DNA of 64,000 bases, from positions 1 to 64,000 of the forward strand of contig CAIUSV010000079.1 in assembly GCA_903901915.1 (NCBI GenBank), read 5' to 3'. The DNA is from an uncultured Rhodospirillaceae bacterium (GTDB lineage: Bacteria > Pseudomonadota > Alphaproteobacteria > Rhodospirillales > Magnetospirillaceae). Position numbers and translations under genes: made by a program. Positions 59,180 through 64,000 of this stretch are shown one piece after another. The notes under the pieces are model-generated. The model saw only the letters and a list, made by a program, of their open reading frames with translations, searched no databases and had not been told where the DNA came from. How positions within the stretch are numbered: position 1 is the first letter of the stretch; every line of letters starts with the position of its first letter.

Positions 59180-60322
59180 GTGAAAATACTGATCGATGCA
59201 TCGTGTTTGGCGCCGCCGTTGACCGGTGTCGGGCGTTATGCCCGCAACATCATCGAGCGGCTGCCCGCCGCACTTCCCGATGCCGAATTTCGATATTTCC
59301 TCGGCGGCCGGTGGGCGGCGGCCCTTCCCGACCGGGCAAGGGGGTCGTTCACCCAAGCGGGGCTTCTTCGTCATTTGGCGCGGCGGATTCCCGTCAGCTG
59401 GCCTTTGTGGCGCGGCCTGCAGGCGGCGCTATGGCGCGGCTCCCTCTCGGCCGAAGACCGGGGCAGCGTCTGCTTCGCCCCCAATTTCCTGCCGCCATGT
59501 CCGTGGACGCCGTGCGTGCCGGTGGTGCATGACCTGTCCTTTCTCCGTCTGCCGGAGAGTCTTCCCCAAGGACGAAGGGCGCGGCTGCAAGATCTTCGGC
59601 GGCACCTGCACCGGGCGTCCGCCATCATCGCGGTTTCCGGGTTCACCGCCAAAGAGATGGTTGCCGAATATGGCCTGCGCGCGGAGCGGATCCATCTGGC
59701 CCCGCCCGGTGTCGCGCCGCGATTCTGGCGTGACGCCCCCCCTCCCCCGGAAAGTCTGGCCGAATTCTCTCTCTCCCCCCAAGGCTATTACCTCTGTGTC
59801 GGCACATTCGAGCCGCGAAAAAATCTGGCGACCCTGGTCGCGGCGTATTCCCGACTGCCATCTTGCATGCGGGAGCGTTTTCCCCTGGTGCTGGCGGGAG
59901 CGCCCGGATGGGGAAATTACGGGTGGGCGCCGTCCTGGGAGACATTGGCGAATAGCGGTCAGCTGCGCATTCTCGATTATGTTCCCGATGAGGCGCTTGC
60001 GGATCTGTATGGCGGCGCCATCGCCCTGTGCATGCCGTCCCTTTACGAAGGGTTCGGGATGCCGGTGGCGGAAGCCCTGGCGGGAGGCACGCCGGTTCTG
60101 GCCTCCAATGCCGGGGCGTTGCCGGCAACGGTCGGCCCCGGCGGTATTCTGCTGTCGCCACTTGACGTTCCGGCCTGGACGGACGCCATGATCGTCATGG
60201 CCGAGGACGACGCGCTGCGGCGTCGGCTGGCCGCGGCGGGACGTCCGCACGGCCGTTCATTTCGCTGGGACGCGAGTGCTTTGGTGGTGGCGGCGGCGTT
60301 GCGTGCCGCCGACCCGGCCTGA
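59180..60322 (+). CDS. GT4-family glycosyltransferase
   Basis: A 380-aa GT-B fold transferase. The start KILIDASCLAPPLTGVGRYARNIIERL and the middle VPVVHDLSFLRLPESLPQGRRARLQ, AIIAVSGFTAKEMVAEYGL and GYYLCVGTFEPRKNLATLVAAY are typical of the GT4 (RfaB) group. The nucleotide-sugar Glu motif is MPSLYEGFGMPVAEALAGGTPVLAS. The start codon is GTG. It ends 57 bases before the PqqD gene, with a promoter-like sequence spanning its stop codon, so it is probably a separate transcript. It may glycosylate a peptide made by the neighbouring RiPP genes or belong to surface polysaccharide synthesis; the sequence does not decide. Confidence 0.85.
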   Translation: MKILIDASCLAPPLTGVGRYARNIIERLPAALPDAEFRYFLGGRWAAALPDRARGSFTQAGLLRHLARRIPVSWPLWRGLQAALWRGSLSAEDRGSVCFAPNFLPPCPWTPCVPVVHDLSFLRLPESLPQGRRARLQDLRRHLHRASAIIAVSGFTAKEMVAEYGLRAERIHLAPPGVAPRFWRDAPPPPESLAEFSLSPQGYYLCVGTFEPRKNLATLVAAYSRLPSCMRERFPLVLAGAPGWGNYGWAPSWETLANSGQLRILDYVPDEALADLYGGAIALCMPSLYEGFGMPVAEALAGGTPVLASNAGALPATVGPGGILLSPLDVPAWTDAMIVMAEDDALRRRLAAAGRPHGRSFRWDASALVVAAALRAADPA

Positions 60323-60328
60323 TATAAC
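60299..60328 (+). promoter_or_regulatory. Sigma-70-like promoter before the PqqD-family gene
   Basis: TTGCGT (60299-60304) and TATAAC (60323-60328) are separated by 18 bases, placing the start point near 60335, about 45 bases before the PqqD-family start codon. The -35 box lies inside the end of the glycosyltransferase gene. Confidence 0.4.
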
Positions 60329-60378
60329 GCCGCCACCCTGGGTCTACACATCAAGGAATGCCGGGAAGGGGATGCGCC

Positions 60379-60657
60379 ATGCCGTTGGACCTCAATTCTC
60401 AAGTTGCCCGTATGGCCGACATGATGGCCGCTCCGGTGGATCAGGATCTTGTCATCCTGAACCTGGCGACCAACACCTATGTCGGCCTGGACGGGATCGG
60501 GCGGCGCATCTGGGAATTGCTGGAAACGCCGCAAAGCGTCGAGGCCTTGTGCCGGCATCTCGGCCAGGAGTTTGAAGGTTCGCCGGACGAGATCGCCGCG
60601 GACGTGATGTCGTTCTTGCGCGAGTTGGAGGCCGAGGGACTGCTGCAGGAGACCTGA
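60379..60657 (+). CDS. PqqD-family RiPP precursor recognition protein
   Basis: A 92-aa PqqD-like winged-helix protein (RRE, the domain that binds leader peptides). DQDLVILNLATNTYVGLDGIGRRIWELLETPQSVEALCRHLGQEFEGSPDEIAADVMSFLRELEAEGLLQ follows the family line (VLL....YFSLNxTGxxIWELL...L......F). In lasso peptide systems this protein is called B1 and delivers the precursor to the B2 protease. The start at 60379 has AAGGGG 7 bases upstream; an in-frame ATG at 60358 is possible. It stands two genes before three precursor peptides and is the expected partner of the B2 domain at 62974. Confidence 0.9.
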   Translation: MPLDLNSQVARMADMMAAPVDQDLVILNLATNTYVGLDGIGRRIWELLETPQSVEALCRHLGQEFEGSPDEIAADVMSFLRELEAEGLLQET

Positions 60658-60679
60658 CGGCCGCGAAGGCGCAAGGAAA

Positions 60680-61171
60680 ATGCACGATACCGAAACAAAC
60701 GCCCATTCCCTTTGCAAGGCGTGCGGCCTGTGCTGCGACGGGACCCTTTTCGACCATGCCCGTCTGGCGCCGGAAGACGATCGCGGGGTAGTGGACGCGG
60801 CGGGTATCAGGCTGCGCGACGATCGCACGTCCTTTCACCTGCCCTGTCCGGCCTACAAGGACATCTGCACCATATACGACGATCGGCTCCGGATCTGTGG
60901 CGAATTCAGATGCAACCTTCTCATCAAATACATGGAGGGAACCGCAGGCTATGAGGCGGCCTTTGAAATCATCTCCAGGGTGAAGGCGTTGTCTTCAAAA
61001 CTACGAAAACAGATGGCCGACATTACCGGGCAAGATGGACAACCCCTTCGTTCCGCCTACATGACGGTGCGCGCCATTGGCGACGATTCGCATCGGGCGA
61101 TGCTGCTCGACTATGCCGTTCTTCTCCACCACATCCGGAAACACTTCGCCAAAAGCCGATCCGGCGCGTAG
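60680..61171 (+). CDS. YkgJ-family cysteine-cluster protein
   Basis: A 163-aa protein with eight conserved cysteines in the YkgJ/UPF0153 pattern: C12, C15, C18 and C19 in SLCKACGLCCDG, then C56 in PCPAYKD, C63 in ICTIY, C73 in RICGEF and C78 in FRCNLL. The family is thought to bind zinc or iron; its role is not established. Relatives turn up in RiPP loci, so it may be a tailoring or metal-handling protein for the neighbouring peptides with their CPSTGC motif. It follows the PqqD gene by 22 bases. A 145-base gap without a gene follows, which includes the leader of the first precursor. Confidence 0.85.
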   Translation: MHDTETNAHSLCKACGLCCDGTLFDHARLAPEDDRGVVDAAGIRLRDDRTSFHLPCPAYKDICTIYDDRLRICGEFRCNLLIKYMEGTAGYEAAFEIISRVKALSSKLRKQMADITGQDGQPLRSAYMTVRAIGDDSHRAMLLDYAVLLHHIRKHFAKSRSGA

Positions 61172-61316
61172 GCGATCGGCTCTCGACGTGATCGGCGTGG
61201 CGGCGACCGGGGTTGTTTTCGCGCCAAAATGTTCATTGAATTGCCTGTCTGGGTGTGGCAGTAAGCCTTTATCCTGTTCGATACGCCTGTTAGATACAAT
61301 TTGGGATGATGCTTAC

Positions 61317-61472
61317 ATGACCCCGACCTCCGATCGCCTGAACGCCGCCGATCCGGCGCCCGCGTTTCCGTCCTCCAAGGCTCGTCAAATCTGGCGTCGC
61401 CCGGTCGTCACCCGCCTTGATGTCGGCCGCCGGACCTTGATGTGGTGCCCCTCCACCGGTTGTCCCGATTGA
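61317..61472 (+). CDS. RiPP precursor peptide, copy 1
   Basis: A 51-aa peptide starting MTPTSDRLNAADPAPAFP and ending in CPSTGCPD. Residues 26-41 (WRRPVVTRLDVGRRTL) fit the leader pattern of lasso precursors: an aromatic-x-x-Pro motif read by the PqqD/B1 protein, then LDV, then a Thr (Thr40). If cleavage leaves Thr at -2, the tail released is residues 42-51, MWCPSTGCPD. This is the most divergent copy (RRTLMW where the others have RLTLNG) and the only one with an acidic residue in its tail (the last Asp). The upstream 40 bases are homologous to those of copies 2 and 3. The start is fixed by the conserved MTPTSDR. Confidence 0.82.
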   Translation: MTPTSDRLNAADPAPAFPSSKARQIWRRPVVTRLDVGRRTLMWCPSTGCPD

Positions 61473-61561
61473 TTATCACGAGACGTTAACCGGACTTCGG
61501 GGTATAAAGGGCGGTCTGTGTGCGAAACTTTCGTCAAACCCTGCCTGGGAAGGTGCTTCAC

Positions 61562-61717
61562 ATGACCCCGACCTCCGATCGTCCGAACGCCGCCGGTCAG
61601 GCGCCCGCGTTTTCATCGTCCACACCGCGTCAAGTCTGGCGTCGCCCGGTTGTCACCCGCATTGATGTCGGCCGCCTGACCTTGAATGGCTGCCCCTCCA
61701 CCGGTTGCCCCACCTGA
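61562..61717 (+). CDS. RiPP precursor peptide, copy 2
   Basis: A 51-aa peptide, MTPTSDRPNAAGQAPAF... with leader WRRPVVTRIDVGRLTL and tail NGCPSTGCPT. The start is set by alignment with copies 1 and 3 and by GGGAAGG a few bases upstream. It is 245 bases after copy 1. The tail has two cysteines (44 and 49), Ser46 and Thr47, but no Asp or Glu, so a lasso-type isopeptide ring cannot form in it. The gap behind it holds a 7-bp hairpin (61724-61742). Confidence 0.82.
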   Translation: MTPTSDRPNAAGQAPAFSSSTPRQVWRRPVVTRIDVGRLTLNGCPSTGCPT

Positions 61718-61723
61718 TTGCCA

Positions 61724-61742
61724 GGAGGCCGGATCGGCCTCC
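61724..61742 (+). promoter_or_regulatory. Hairpin between precursor copies 2 and 3
   Basis: GGAGGCC and GGCCTCC form a perfect 7-bp stem with a 5-base loop, 6 bases after the copy 2 stop. It has no T run. It may stabilise the mRNA or adjust precursor to enzyme ratios. Confidence 0.45.
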
Positions 61743-61801
61743 GGGTTAAGGAGGCGCCGGTTGCGATACTTTTGCCAACATTGCCTGGGATGATACTTCA
61801 C

Positions 61802-61957
61802 ATGACCCCGACCTCCGATCGCTTGAACGCCGCCGATCAAGTGCCCGCATCTTCGTCGTCCACACCGCGTCAAGCTTGGCGTCGCCCGGTTGTCACCCGC
61901 CTTGATGTCGGCCGCCTGACCTTGAATGGCTGCCCCTCCACCGGTTGCTTGGGATGA
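61802..61957 (+). CDS. RiPP precursor peptide, copy 3
   Basis: A 51-aa peptide with leader WRRPVVTRLDVGRLTL and tail NGCPSTGCLG. By my alignment it differs from copy 2 at about 18 of 156 bases, with a third of these in the last two codons, so the two are recent duplicates in which the peptide end has changed. The CPSTGC core is fully conserved. It begins 240 bases after copy 2 and is followed by a hairpin and the kinase gene, so all belong to one transcript. Confidence 0.82.
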   Translation: MTPTSDRLNAADQVPASSSSTPRQAWRRPVVTRLDVGRLTLNGCPSTGCLG

Positions 61958-61996
61958 TCGCCCCGAAACCTGATCCGGTTCCGGGTTAAGGGGCGA
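61958..61996 (+). promoter_or_regulatory. Hairpin after precursor copy 3
   Basis: TCGCCCC (61958-61964) starts right after the copy 3 stop codon and pairs perfectly with GGGGCGA (61990-61996); an inner stem CGAAACC with GGTTCCG has one mismatch. Without a T run it is more likely a processing or partial-termination element that sets the precursor to kinase ratio than a full terminator. Confidence 0.5.
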
Positions 61997-62039
61997 CGAA
62001 ATTTTGGGGGCCGGCCGGTCACGGGCGGGATGTTGGCGG

Positions 62040-62990
62040 TTGGGCACAGCTTATACCTACCAGGCCTATGGCTTGACCCTGCGGGTCCCCTTCGTTTGCT
62101 CCGGCCTGTCCACGGGCGATCCGGGGACTCCTCCCGATCTGGAGGTGGTCGAGGGCGAGGTTCCCGCCACCCTGGCCGCCGCCGAGCTCAGGGGGGACGG
62201 CTTTGAGGCCGCGCCCGGCCGCCTTCTGCTGGAACTTGGGCGCTTTTCGGGACGCTTTCTCGTCGAGAACGGGCGCCGCGTCACCTTCCAGCGCGGTTCC
62301 ACGGCGGAGGAAGCCGCCTTGGGCTACCATTTGATCAACTCGATCATGGCCGCCGTCATGCGCCAGCGTGGTTATCTGGTGATGCACGCTTCCGTCGCCG
62401 CGCGGGGTTCGACCGCGATCATGGTGATGGGGGTCTCGGGGGCGGGAAAATCCACCACCCTGGCCGCCCTGTGTGCGCGCGGGTGGTCCATGCTGTCCGA
62501 CGACGTTACCGTTCTTCAGCGCTCCTTGGCGGGGGAAATACAGGTCCTGCCGGGGGTGCCGCAGGTCTCGCTGTTCGAGCACACGGCGCAACGGCTGGAT
62601 ATGGATGTCGCCGGCCAGCCGCTGTATCCCTGGCGGCGGATGAAGGCGCTCATCCCCTCTCCGGCGCCGACGAGTTCGGAGCCGGTGCCGTTAAGGACGG
62701 TCTTCATTCTGGAGTTGGGCTCGGGTCCCACCCTGGAACGCGAGAAGATGCTTGGGGCGCAGCGGTTCGGCGCCCTTTACGACGGCCTCTACGGGCCGGT
62801 TCTTCCCTCGGAATACGCCGGCATTCTGCCGCTTCATGCCGCCATGACCAACCAGACCACCGTCTTCCGCCTGCGCCGCCCCAGCGAGCCCTGGTCGGTG
62901 GATGACGTGGTGGCGCAAATCACCGAAGATGCCTTTCCACCGGGCGACACCGGGCGGAGCGGGGCGGGCGGACATGCTGCGGAAGGGTGA
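62040..62990 (+). CDS. HPr kinase-like protein (RiPP-associated kinase)
   Basis: About 316 aa. The beginning YTYQAYGLTLRVPF is the typical start of HprK-like kinases linked to lasso clusters. The P-loop GVSGAGKSTTLAALCARG (about residues 131-148) and the following SMLSDDVTVLQ match the HprK catalytic core. In the paeninodin-type lasso systems such a kinase phosphorylates the precursor C-terminus at a Ser; here Ser46 or Thr47 of the CPSTGC tail are the natural candidates (inference). The start is uncertain: TTG 62040 matches family length, TTG 62004 is an alternative with AGGGG upstream. Its stop overlaps the B2-fusion start by 17 bases. Confidence 0.83.
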   Translation: MGTAYTYQAYGLTLRVPFVCSGLSTGDPGTPPDLEVVEGEVPATLAAAELRGDGFEAAPGRLLLELGRFSGRFLVENGRRVTFQRGSTAEEAALGYHLINSIMAAVMRQRGYLVMHASVAARGSTAIMVMGVSGAGKSTTLAALCARGWSMLSDDVTVLQRSLAGEIQVLPGVPQVSLFEHTAQRLDMDVAGQPLYPWRRMKALIPSPAPTSSEPVPLRTVFILELGSGPTLEREKMLGAQRFGALYDGLYGPVLPSEYAGILPLHAAMTNQTTVFRLRRPSEPWSVDDVVAQITEDAFPPGDTGRSGAGGHAAEG

Positions 62991-64000
62991 CCTCGCCAAG
63001 CTGGCGACGGAACGTCCGGCCGGGATCGTCCTGCTTGTGGAAGCCGCGTTATGGCTGATGATCATGTCGGTGGCCATCCGTATCCTGGCGTTCGGCCGGA
63101 TCGCCAGGATTCTTGGTCTTAGCGAGAGTGGCGAGCCGATTGCGCCGTCGAGTCCGCCCGATGGCGGGGCGCAAGATATCAGGCGGGCGGTGCGGGCGGT
63201 GGCAGCCCGGCTGCCCTGGACCTGCACCTGTCTGTCTCAGGCCTTGGCCGGCATGGCCCTTCTCACCCGCCGGGGCCTCCCGGGGACCCTGTCTCTCGGC
63301 GTGGCCAAGGGGGGCGGAGAAGCCCAGGGGGAATTCCTGGCCCATGCGTGGCTGAATTGCGGTGACGTCAATATCGCCGGCGAGGAGACATCCGCCTCGT
63401 TTACCCCTCTGGCGCGGTTTGTCGGCAGGCCCGCCGGGGCGAAGGAACTCACCCCCGAGTTCCGCCTCTTCCGCCTCGCCGTGGGAGCCGCGCCGAAGCC
63501 GGATGAGATAAGGCGGCTGGCGTCGGCCGTCACCGACTGGGAGACCGTACCCGCGAGCGCTCGCCGCCATCGCGTGACACAGGCGGTCTTTGTCGCCTTG
63601 CGGGATCATGCCGCCGGGATCGCCCCTCCGGCGATCCTGGAGGACATGCGGGTTCGGTCCCTGGTGGATCAGGCCACCTGTCACGCCCAGGCGGTGGAAT
63701 TGACCCGCATCGGCCGCGCCGGCGACGCGGCGGGAATCGCCATGCTGGTTCTGAAGGGAATCCCGCTGTCGCTGGGGCTTTACGGCCGTCTGGCCGCAAG
63801 GGGAGCGGGCGATATCGATATCCTGGTCGATCCGGCTCAATTGCGCCACGCCGGCACGGTTCTGGAAGGTCTTGGCTATGTCAGGCAGGGCGCCCGAATT
63901 TTCGACCGACGCCAGACGGTCTGCCAGAGCCGGATCAAGGATGTCGCCTATGTGCATCGGACATCCGGTCAGATGGTGGAACTGCATCAACGGCTTACCG
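62974..64000 (+). CDS. Lasso-type B2 protease fused to a nucleotidyltransferase domain (3' end cut by the window)
   Basis: The frame is open from ATG 62974 to the window end (342 codons seen). Residues 1-165 match lasso B2 proteins: a hydrophobic N-terminal segment (LLVEAALWLMIMSVAIRIL), then LPWTCTCLSQALAG with the catalytic Cys (C86), FLAHAWLNCGDVNI with His124 and Asp131, and SFTPLARF. B2 is a transglutaminase-fold cysteine protease that removes the leader. After a linker, residues about 215 onward read like the PF14907-type nucleotidyltransferase: LKGIPLSLGLYGRLAARGAGDIDILVDPAQLRHAGTVLEGLGYV, with Asp280 and Asp282 as the metal pair. In other lasso loci these are separate proteins, so the fusion is notable. 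No macrolactam synthetase is in view; it could lie beyond the end. Confidence 0.8.
   Translation, partial: MLRKGDLAKLATERPAGIVLLVEAALWLMIMSVAIRILAFGRIARILGLSESGEPIAPSSPPDGGAQDIRRAVRAVAARLPWTCTCLSQALAGMALLTRRGLPGTLSLGVAKGGGEAQGEFLAHAWLNCGDVNIAGEETSASFTPLARFVGRPAGAKELTPEFRLFRLAVGAAPKPDEIRRLASAVTDWETVPASARRHRVTQAVFVALRDHAAGIAPPAILEDMRVRSLVDQATCHAQAVELTRIGRAGDAAGIAMLVLKGIPLSLGLYGRLAARGAGDIDILVDPAQLRHAGTVLEGLGYVRQGARIFDRRQTVCQSRIKDVAYVHRTSGQMVELHQRLT

Follow-up and report, generated by a model that had tools for sequence, protein, structure and literature searches.

What does a lasso-type gene cluster make when no enzyme that would close the lasso can be found? The question is raised by a locus at the end of a 64,000-nucleotide window, bases 1-64000 of contig CAIUSV010000079.1 (74,966 bases), from an uncultured Rhodospirillaceae bacterium (assembly GCA_903901915.1; 4.10 Mb, 93 contigs, completeness 99.86%); the locus runs on into the 10,966 bases that remain past the window. 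It encodes, all on the + strand, a PqqD-like protein, a YkgJ-type protein, three short cysteine-containing peptides, an HprK-like kinase and a fusion of a B2 leader peptidase with a nucleotidyltransferase. Judged by sequence, this is a lasso-type (paeninodin/pseudomycoidin-like) cassette. The favoured reading, to which we give slightly less than an even chance, is that its macrolactam cyclase has gone and that it now produces short cysteine peptides. The most likely product would be a disulfide-closed short peptide, possibly phosphorylated and nucleotidylated or glycosylated.

The assignment to lasso-type systems follows from the enzymes. The 92-residue PqqD-like B1 protein (60379..60657, +), a predicted leader-binding recognition element of ribosomally synthesised and post-translationally modified peptides (RiPPs), matches PF05402 with 67.5 bits against a cut-off of 23.4. 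Its best NCBIfam match, lasso_PqqD_Bac, scores 54.8 bits, below the cut-off of 80. Among PDB sequences it comes closest to TbiB1, a lasso B1 protein (5v1u, E 7.3e-11). The fusion protein (62974..64602, +, crossing the window edge at 64000) carries both PF13471 and PF14907, which defines it as a B2-nucleotidyltransferase fusion; its B2 part matches NF033537 (lasso_biosyn_B2) with 89.7 bits (cut-off 33) and is the only B2 match in the host genome, and its nucleotidyltransferase part matches PF14907 with 178.5 bits (cut-off 31.2) and has an intact GDIDILV motif. A first-pass annotation of the window had ascribed a Cys-His-Asp set to B2. Cys and His bear this out in eight of eight usable rows of a nine-row alignment (the G213 row is mis-framed), while the Asp varies across the family alignment.

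The HprK-like kinase (about 62040..62990, +) retains the P-loop GVSGAGKST and the His and SDD motifs in alignment; every Pfam or NCBIfam match lies below its curated cut-off, and it is by motifs and tree grouping that an HPr-kinase homologue, as in paeninodin-type systems, is recognised. Its start was placed by choice at the TTG at 62040; the open reading frame (ORF) list begins at 62004. A nucleotidyltransferase fused to B2 is likewise what a pseudomycoidin-type system would have. Extension past 64000, suggested in the first-pass annotation as a way to find a transporter, reveals an ABC exporter gene (contig 64596-66323, +). From the PqqD gene to the ABC gene the intergenic gaps range from -17 to 145 bases, and all remaining genes of the locus are open with their motifs kept. 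Gene calls and domain matches agree with the annotated gene set and strand, and the PF05402, NF033537 and PF14907 matches with the proposal of a RiPP locus using lasso-type B1/B2 leader handling, a kinase and a nucleotidyltransferase. Since B1, B2, kinase, nucleotidyltransferase and exporter are all of lasso type with intact motifs, they support the favoured reading. Kinases, nucleotidyltransferases, sulfotransferases and the B2-nucleotidyltransferase fusion are reported as lasso accessories (PMC8498205), the fusion for several clusters.

What departs from the lasso type is the peptides themselves. Three 51-residue precursors are encoded at 61317..61472, 61562..61717 and 61802..61957 (all +), with predicted cores MWCPSTGCPD, NGCPSTGCPT and NGCPSTGCLG, respectively, each following Thr-Leu. 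Three such peptides had been annotated as near-identical, a description that is a little strong: copies 2 and 3 each share 76% identity with copy 1, and 15 of 51 positions vary in residue. Positions 44-49 (CPSTGC) are invariant, unlike core positions 1, 2, 9 and 10, each of which varies; both Cys residues and the Thr-Leu site are thus unchanged across copies that vary elsewhere. The leaders are of lasso type, with W at -16 and Thr at -2; all 16 precursors aligned, three of which are these copies, share the W and P of the W-x-x-P motif.

For comparison, 18 precursors from 14 other loci were accepted by motif plus by eye, and cores were read from the Thr at -2. This set is partial, none having been accepted at nine cyclase-bearing stretches (G243, G022, G160, G242b, G067, G261b, G234, G863 and G739). 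Closest to the present locus are those of genomes G110, of the same genus, and G029. The G110 core reads TL|AGSGSNPD, and the two G029 cores, both after TL, are ASMGSLNDGGTPTV and SNVGSVADGGLGSTP (starting ASMGSLND.. and SNVGSVAD..). Relative to these, Ser5 is retained, Asp8 has become Cys8 and Cys3 is new. A core Cys occurs in 0/18 other precursors as against 3/3 here. Conversely, an acidic residue (D/E) at core positions 7-9, the usual ring acid of a lasso peptide, is found in 12/18 others and in 0/3 here; the first acid of the six exceptions lies at position 6 (G275), 10 or 12 (G242c) and 12 (three of G732), the sixth being the G880 precursor, which has no Thr and would have E8 if cut before Gly. 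A ten-residue core also leaves only two residues beyond position 8, a tail too short for threading.

Two observations on individual relatives may be added. The G732 locus (L148:7779-8459) encodes three Lys-rich lasso-like precursors together with a cyclase and YkgJ, their first acid lying at core 12, outside the usual 7-9. The G110 precursor (L058:11911-12060) stops at Asp8, without a tail, and the frame past its stop is open into the cyclase gene; the peptide may be a plain ring or the gene may be damaged.

The presence or absence of an asparagine-synthetase-like cyclase had been named in the first-pass annotation as a test. Searches by tblastn, PF00733 and profile turned up none, be it in the locus, in the flank past 64000 or in the genome. 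With 12 lasso cyclases as tblastn queries, the window and 11 kb of flank yielded neither a cyclase nor a remnant of one (best E 0.019). The host genome has 12 PF00733 matches, nine strong and full-length and three weak and partial. Leaving out the three weak ones, no lasso-type cyclase is among the nine, all of which begin with MCG. An MCG start marks glutamine-dependent AsnB-type proteins and sets them apart from lasso cyclases; it is absent in all 12 rows of the lasso-cyclase profile used here. When this profile was run over 17 genomes of the genus, six scored 421-776 bits and the rest 271 or less, the host 237. Cyclases of G110, G213 and G275 were themselves part of the profile; those of G140, G209 and G190 were not. 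Apart from the host, the genomes of the genus that bear B2 are these same six, so that the host is the only one of seven in which no cyclase was found. In a limited literature search, with most subscription papers outside its reach, the term 'cyclase-less' did not turn up.

A cyclase might in principle act from elsewhere, being either absent from the assembly or a genomic AsnB-type protein, and give a small macrolactam. The distribution of the assembly over 93 contigs, the split of B2 and cyclase between contigs in G140, G190 and G209, and an Asp at core position 10 of precursor 1 would allow for this. It is nonetheless very improbable, given the completeness of 99.86%, the MCG start of all nine full-length candidates and the cores themselves, whose lack of D/E at 7-9 would leave a normal lasso cyclase nothing to join. 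In each of G140, G209 and G190, B2 is on one contig and the lasso cyclase with its precursor on a different one (L192, L193 and L194 against L074, L073 and L066); these are either split lasso systems or assembly breaks.

That the short Cys core falls outside the described lasso class, as annotated, is upheld on three counts, namely the lack of D/E at 7-9, the short tail and the cyclase that was not found. On sequence grounds the system is lasso-like up to leader removal, yet its predicted product is not a lasso peptide by cyclase, ring acid or tail. If a cassette without a cyclase is producing cysteine peptides, the following sequence of events can be envisaged. PqqD/B1 would bind the W-x-x-P leader of each of the three precursors, and B2 would cleave after Thr-Leu to release the ten-residue cores. 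A Cys3-Cys8 disulfide would then replace the isopeptide bond between residue 1 and Asp8, giving a ring of six residues, CPSTGC. The HprK-like kinase would phosphorylate Ser5, the fused nucleotidyltransferase would decorate the Ser5 phosphate, and the ABC protein would export the product. We infer the cleavage site, the disulfide, Ser5 as substrate, the order of steps, export and the activity of the system as a whole.

The paeninodin kinase uses a C-terminal Ser, a residue that the host cores do not have. A C-terminal Ser is present in 15/18 other precursors, all outside the kinase group formed by the host, G110 and G029; the host copies end in D, T and G, and G110 and G029 also lack this acceptor. 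Ser5, on the other hand, is found in 6/6 precursors of that kinase group (three being recent copies) and in 2/14 others with a readable Thr at -2. There is a precedent for an internal target: BsfK, an HprK-like lasso kinase, is reported to phosphorylate an internal Ser (Ser3; PMC10368454). Ser5 is therefore suggested as the kinase target, on the grounds of its presence throughout the group, the missing C-terminal Ser and the BsfK precedent.

Going further, the peptides might represent cyclase-free, disulfide-closed 'post-lasso' decapeptides, a lasso-descended RiPP type in which Cys3-Cys8 stands in for ATP-dependent isopeptide closure, while B1/B2 processing and Ser5 phosphorylation and nucleotidyl transfer are kept. 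This is a possible but doubtful proposition.

Where such a form might have come from is indicated by the kinship of its genes. In midpoint-rooted trees, the nucleotidyltransferase and the ABC exporter each pair with G110 (100/100), the kinase falls in a group with one kinase each of G110 and G029 (100/100), and B2 groups with G029 at only 84/85. Rows for these trees were picked by score (60 bits for the nucleotidyltransferase, 190 for ABC, 60 for HprK and 40 for B2), and weak rows such as the G029 nucleotidyltransferase were dropped. The loci of G110 (contig 6, L058) and G029 (contig 6, L115) resemble that of the host in the nucleotidyltransferase and ABC exporter (G110), the kinase (both), Thr-Leu before the core, Ser5 and the eight-residue block. 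They differ in having a cyclase of their own, two kinases, a sulfotransferase and Asp8, and no Cys; cyclase, both kinases, sulfotransferase, PqqD and B2 adjoin one another in each. Because both of these loci bear a cyclase, parsimony suggests that it was lost in the host lineage. In L058 and L115 the HprK-like kinases are in tandem, and the second one of G110 has Asn for His and an altered P-loop, GIGVSGKST.

The YkgJ-type protein (60680..61171, +; 163 residues, eight Cys) matches PF03692 with 23.4 bits, barely over the cut-off of 23. Matches to it at E <= 1e-5 occur in 13 of 398 genomes of the phylum, the host included. The six best of the 12 other relatives, in other Proteobacteria, adjoin lasso-type genes, and all six 20-kb stretches around them contain a cyclase-like gene (104-158 bits to lasso-cyclase queries, 47-71 to AsnB). 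A role of YkgJ as cyclase replacement is ruled out by this co-occurrence. On present sequence comparisons it is a recurring accessory of lasso-type clusters that is not tied to Cys cores. Its AlphaFold model (pLDDT 83.7) gave no PDB fold match at E <= 0.001, and the literature search, with the same limit on subscription papers, found nothing linking YkgJ to a lasso peptide or RiPP. The annotation is to be amended in that kinase, nucleotidyltransferase and fusion are known lasso accessories, and YkgJ itself recurs in lasso-type clusters, with a cyclase-like gene in 6/6.

YkgJ is also the starting point for a different view of the cysteines, in which they would undergo other chemistry (metal binding, thioether formation, redox or methyl reactions) with YkgJ as enzyme or metal donor. 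Its eight Cys, the location of its gene in the same operon, ending 145 bases 5' of the first Cys peptide, and the naming of PF03692 as a zinc- or iron-chelating family speak in favour. This view is nevertheless improbable: the six best YkgJ relatives sit in cyclase-bearing clusters, core Cys is absent from the seven precursors accepted at four of these loci, and neither a radical SAM protein nor a lanthionine synthetase was seen in the operon in Pfam/NCBIfam scans. At the YkgJ loci of G863 and G739, a poorly fitting 104-residue ORF does contain Cys.

The Cys peptides were then considered across genomes. A precursor profile matched 24/297 genomes of the order at E <= 0.01 and 4/372 of the class at E <= 0.001, with the host in each; the two samples share genomes, and scoring was limited to 23 and 18 candidates per genome, respectively. 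The best match outside the host (G245, 2.3e-6) is an ORF containing ...LPSTGCAG...; the 20 kb around it (L057) held no lasso gene in a scan. The surroundings of the matches in G134, G109, G086 and G283 were likewise without a lasso gene in the same scan, and translation of 12 order and three class matches gave none resembling a precursor of this set. Contig scans with precursor and YkgJ found no relative, using a pattern that missed the conserved Cys motif. A plasmid search returned nothing for YkgJ, the precursor only at E >= 0.4 and ten matches for the kinase.

By the first-pass annotation, its reading would be refuted if homologous loci kept PqqD, kinase and B2 but never carried CPSTGC peptides. 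This is half the case, in that CPSTGC or a core Cys occurs in 0/18 of the precursors compared; these loci are not devoid of precursors, however, but carry lasso-like ones plus a cyclase. For this reason the Cys peptides look like a derived lasso form, found in one genome so far, and not like a separate class of wide occurrence.

A derived form may also be a decaying one. In this main rival to the favoured reading, an ordinary lasso locus has lost its cyclase, its sulfotransferase and one kinase, the precursors drift, and nothing useful is made even though B1, B2, kinase, nucleotidyltransferase and exporter are unbroken. The three missing genes, by comparison with the G110 and G029 gene sets, would be explained, as would the absence of ring acid and tail, dN/dS ratios that are not low and the restriction to one genome. 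We regard decay as unlikely, though a serious contender, in view of the remaining genes, which are open with their motifs, the three copies, the absence of a cyclase scar, the retention of both Cys and the Thr-Leu site in otherwise varying copies, and the match of Ser5 to the kinase relatives.

Several further points count against production of cysteine peptides by a cassette that has lost its cyclase. No other genome was found with such precursors (297 of the order, 372 of the class; weak matches only), and the operon showed no thiol oxidase. The dN/dS values among the copies (0.48-0.60) are a weak sign of constraint, although the W-x-x-P leader is better evidence that the copies are genes; the copies are also few and recent, so that little can be concluded from their unchanged CPSTGC. 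In G110, the nearest relative, the core is a tailless one of eight residues despite the cyclase, so short cores in this group may mean decay. The Cys-free cores at other YkgJ loci mean that YkgJ lends no support to Cys chemistry. Finally, the NCBIfam lasso-cyclase model fails to separate AsnB-type proteins from lasso cyclases: a host AsnB-type protein scores 298 bits and the G110 cyclase 227, all below the cut-off of 525. The best match of that 298-bit protein is asparagine synthase, over its cut-off.

Among known systems, the paeninodin/pseudomycoidin lasso peptides share with the host B1, B2 (here fused to the nucleotidyltransferase), kinase, ABC exporter, W-x-x-P leader and Thr at -2. The host is unlike them in that no cyclase was found, D/E is missing at 7-9, the core is too short for threading, Cys occupies core positions 3 and 8, YkgJ is present and there is no sulfotransferase. 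Cys pairs in a lasso-type core also occur in the disulfide-bearing lasso peptides of classes I, III and IV; there, the disulfide is added onto a macrolactam lasso (PMC13352647), whereas no macrolactam is expected in the host product. The Bradymonas bsf cluster has the same B1/B2/kinase/nucleotidyltransferase set, and its kinase targets an internal Ser of the core (PMC10368454). It differs in having a cyclase, a predicted Gly1-Asp8 ring and Ile at -2.

If active, the host system would be a case of one RiPP class turning into another: the defining enzyme is lost and the ring residue changes along with it, while leader, B1, B2, kinase and exporter are retained. Whether lasso-type kinases and nucleotidyltransferases can do without a macrolactam could also be tested directly on it. 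Within the literature searched, YkgJ joins the accessories of lasso clusters as one so far unstudied. Tools that find clusters by their cyclase would probably miss such loci.

Some features of the surroundings complete the picture. After precursor 3, a hairpin followed by AAATTTT (61955..62005, +) is predicted by RNA folding (-22.2 kcal/mol, z -2.83; z is -1.00 after copy 2 and +1.51 after copy 1). A consensus terminator scan flagged nothing after copy 3, and the hairpin is possibly an attenuator between precursors and enzymes. Upstream, the locus is flanked by a family-4 glycosyltransferase gene (59180..60322, +; PF00534), which probably does not belong to the system; the G110 locus (L058) also has a homologue at its flank. 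Downstream, 517 bases 3' of the ABC gene, lies a gene for an autotransporter-beta-domain protein (contig 66841-68001, L003:7842-9002, +), a possible outer-membrane partner. Homologues of it lie close to the G110 locus (L058:1877-3013) and, in G115, close to a nucleotidyltransferase (L112:19010-19999).

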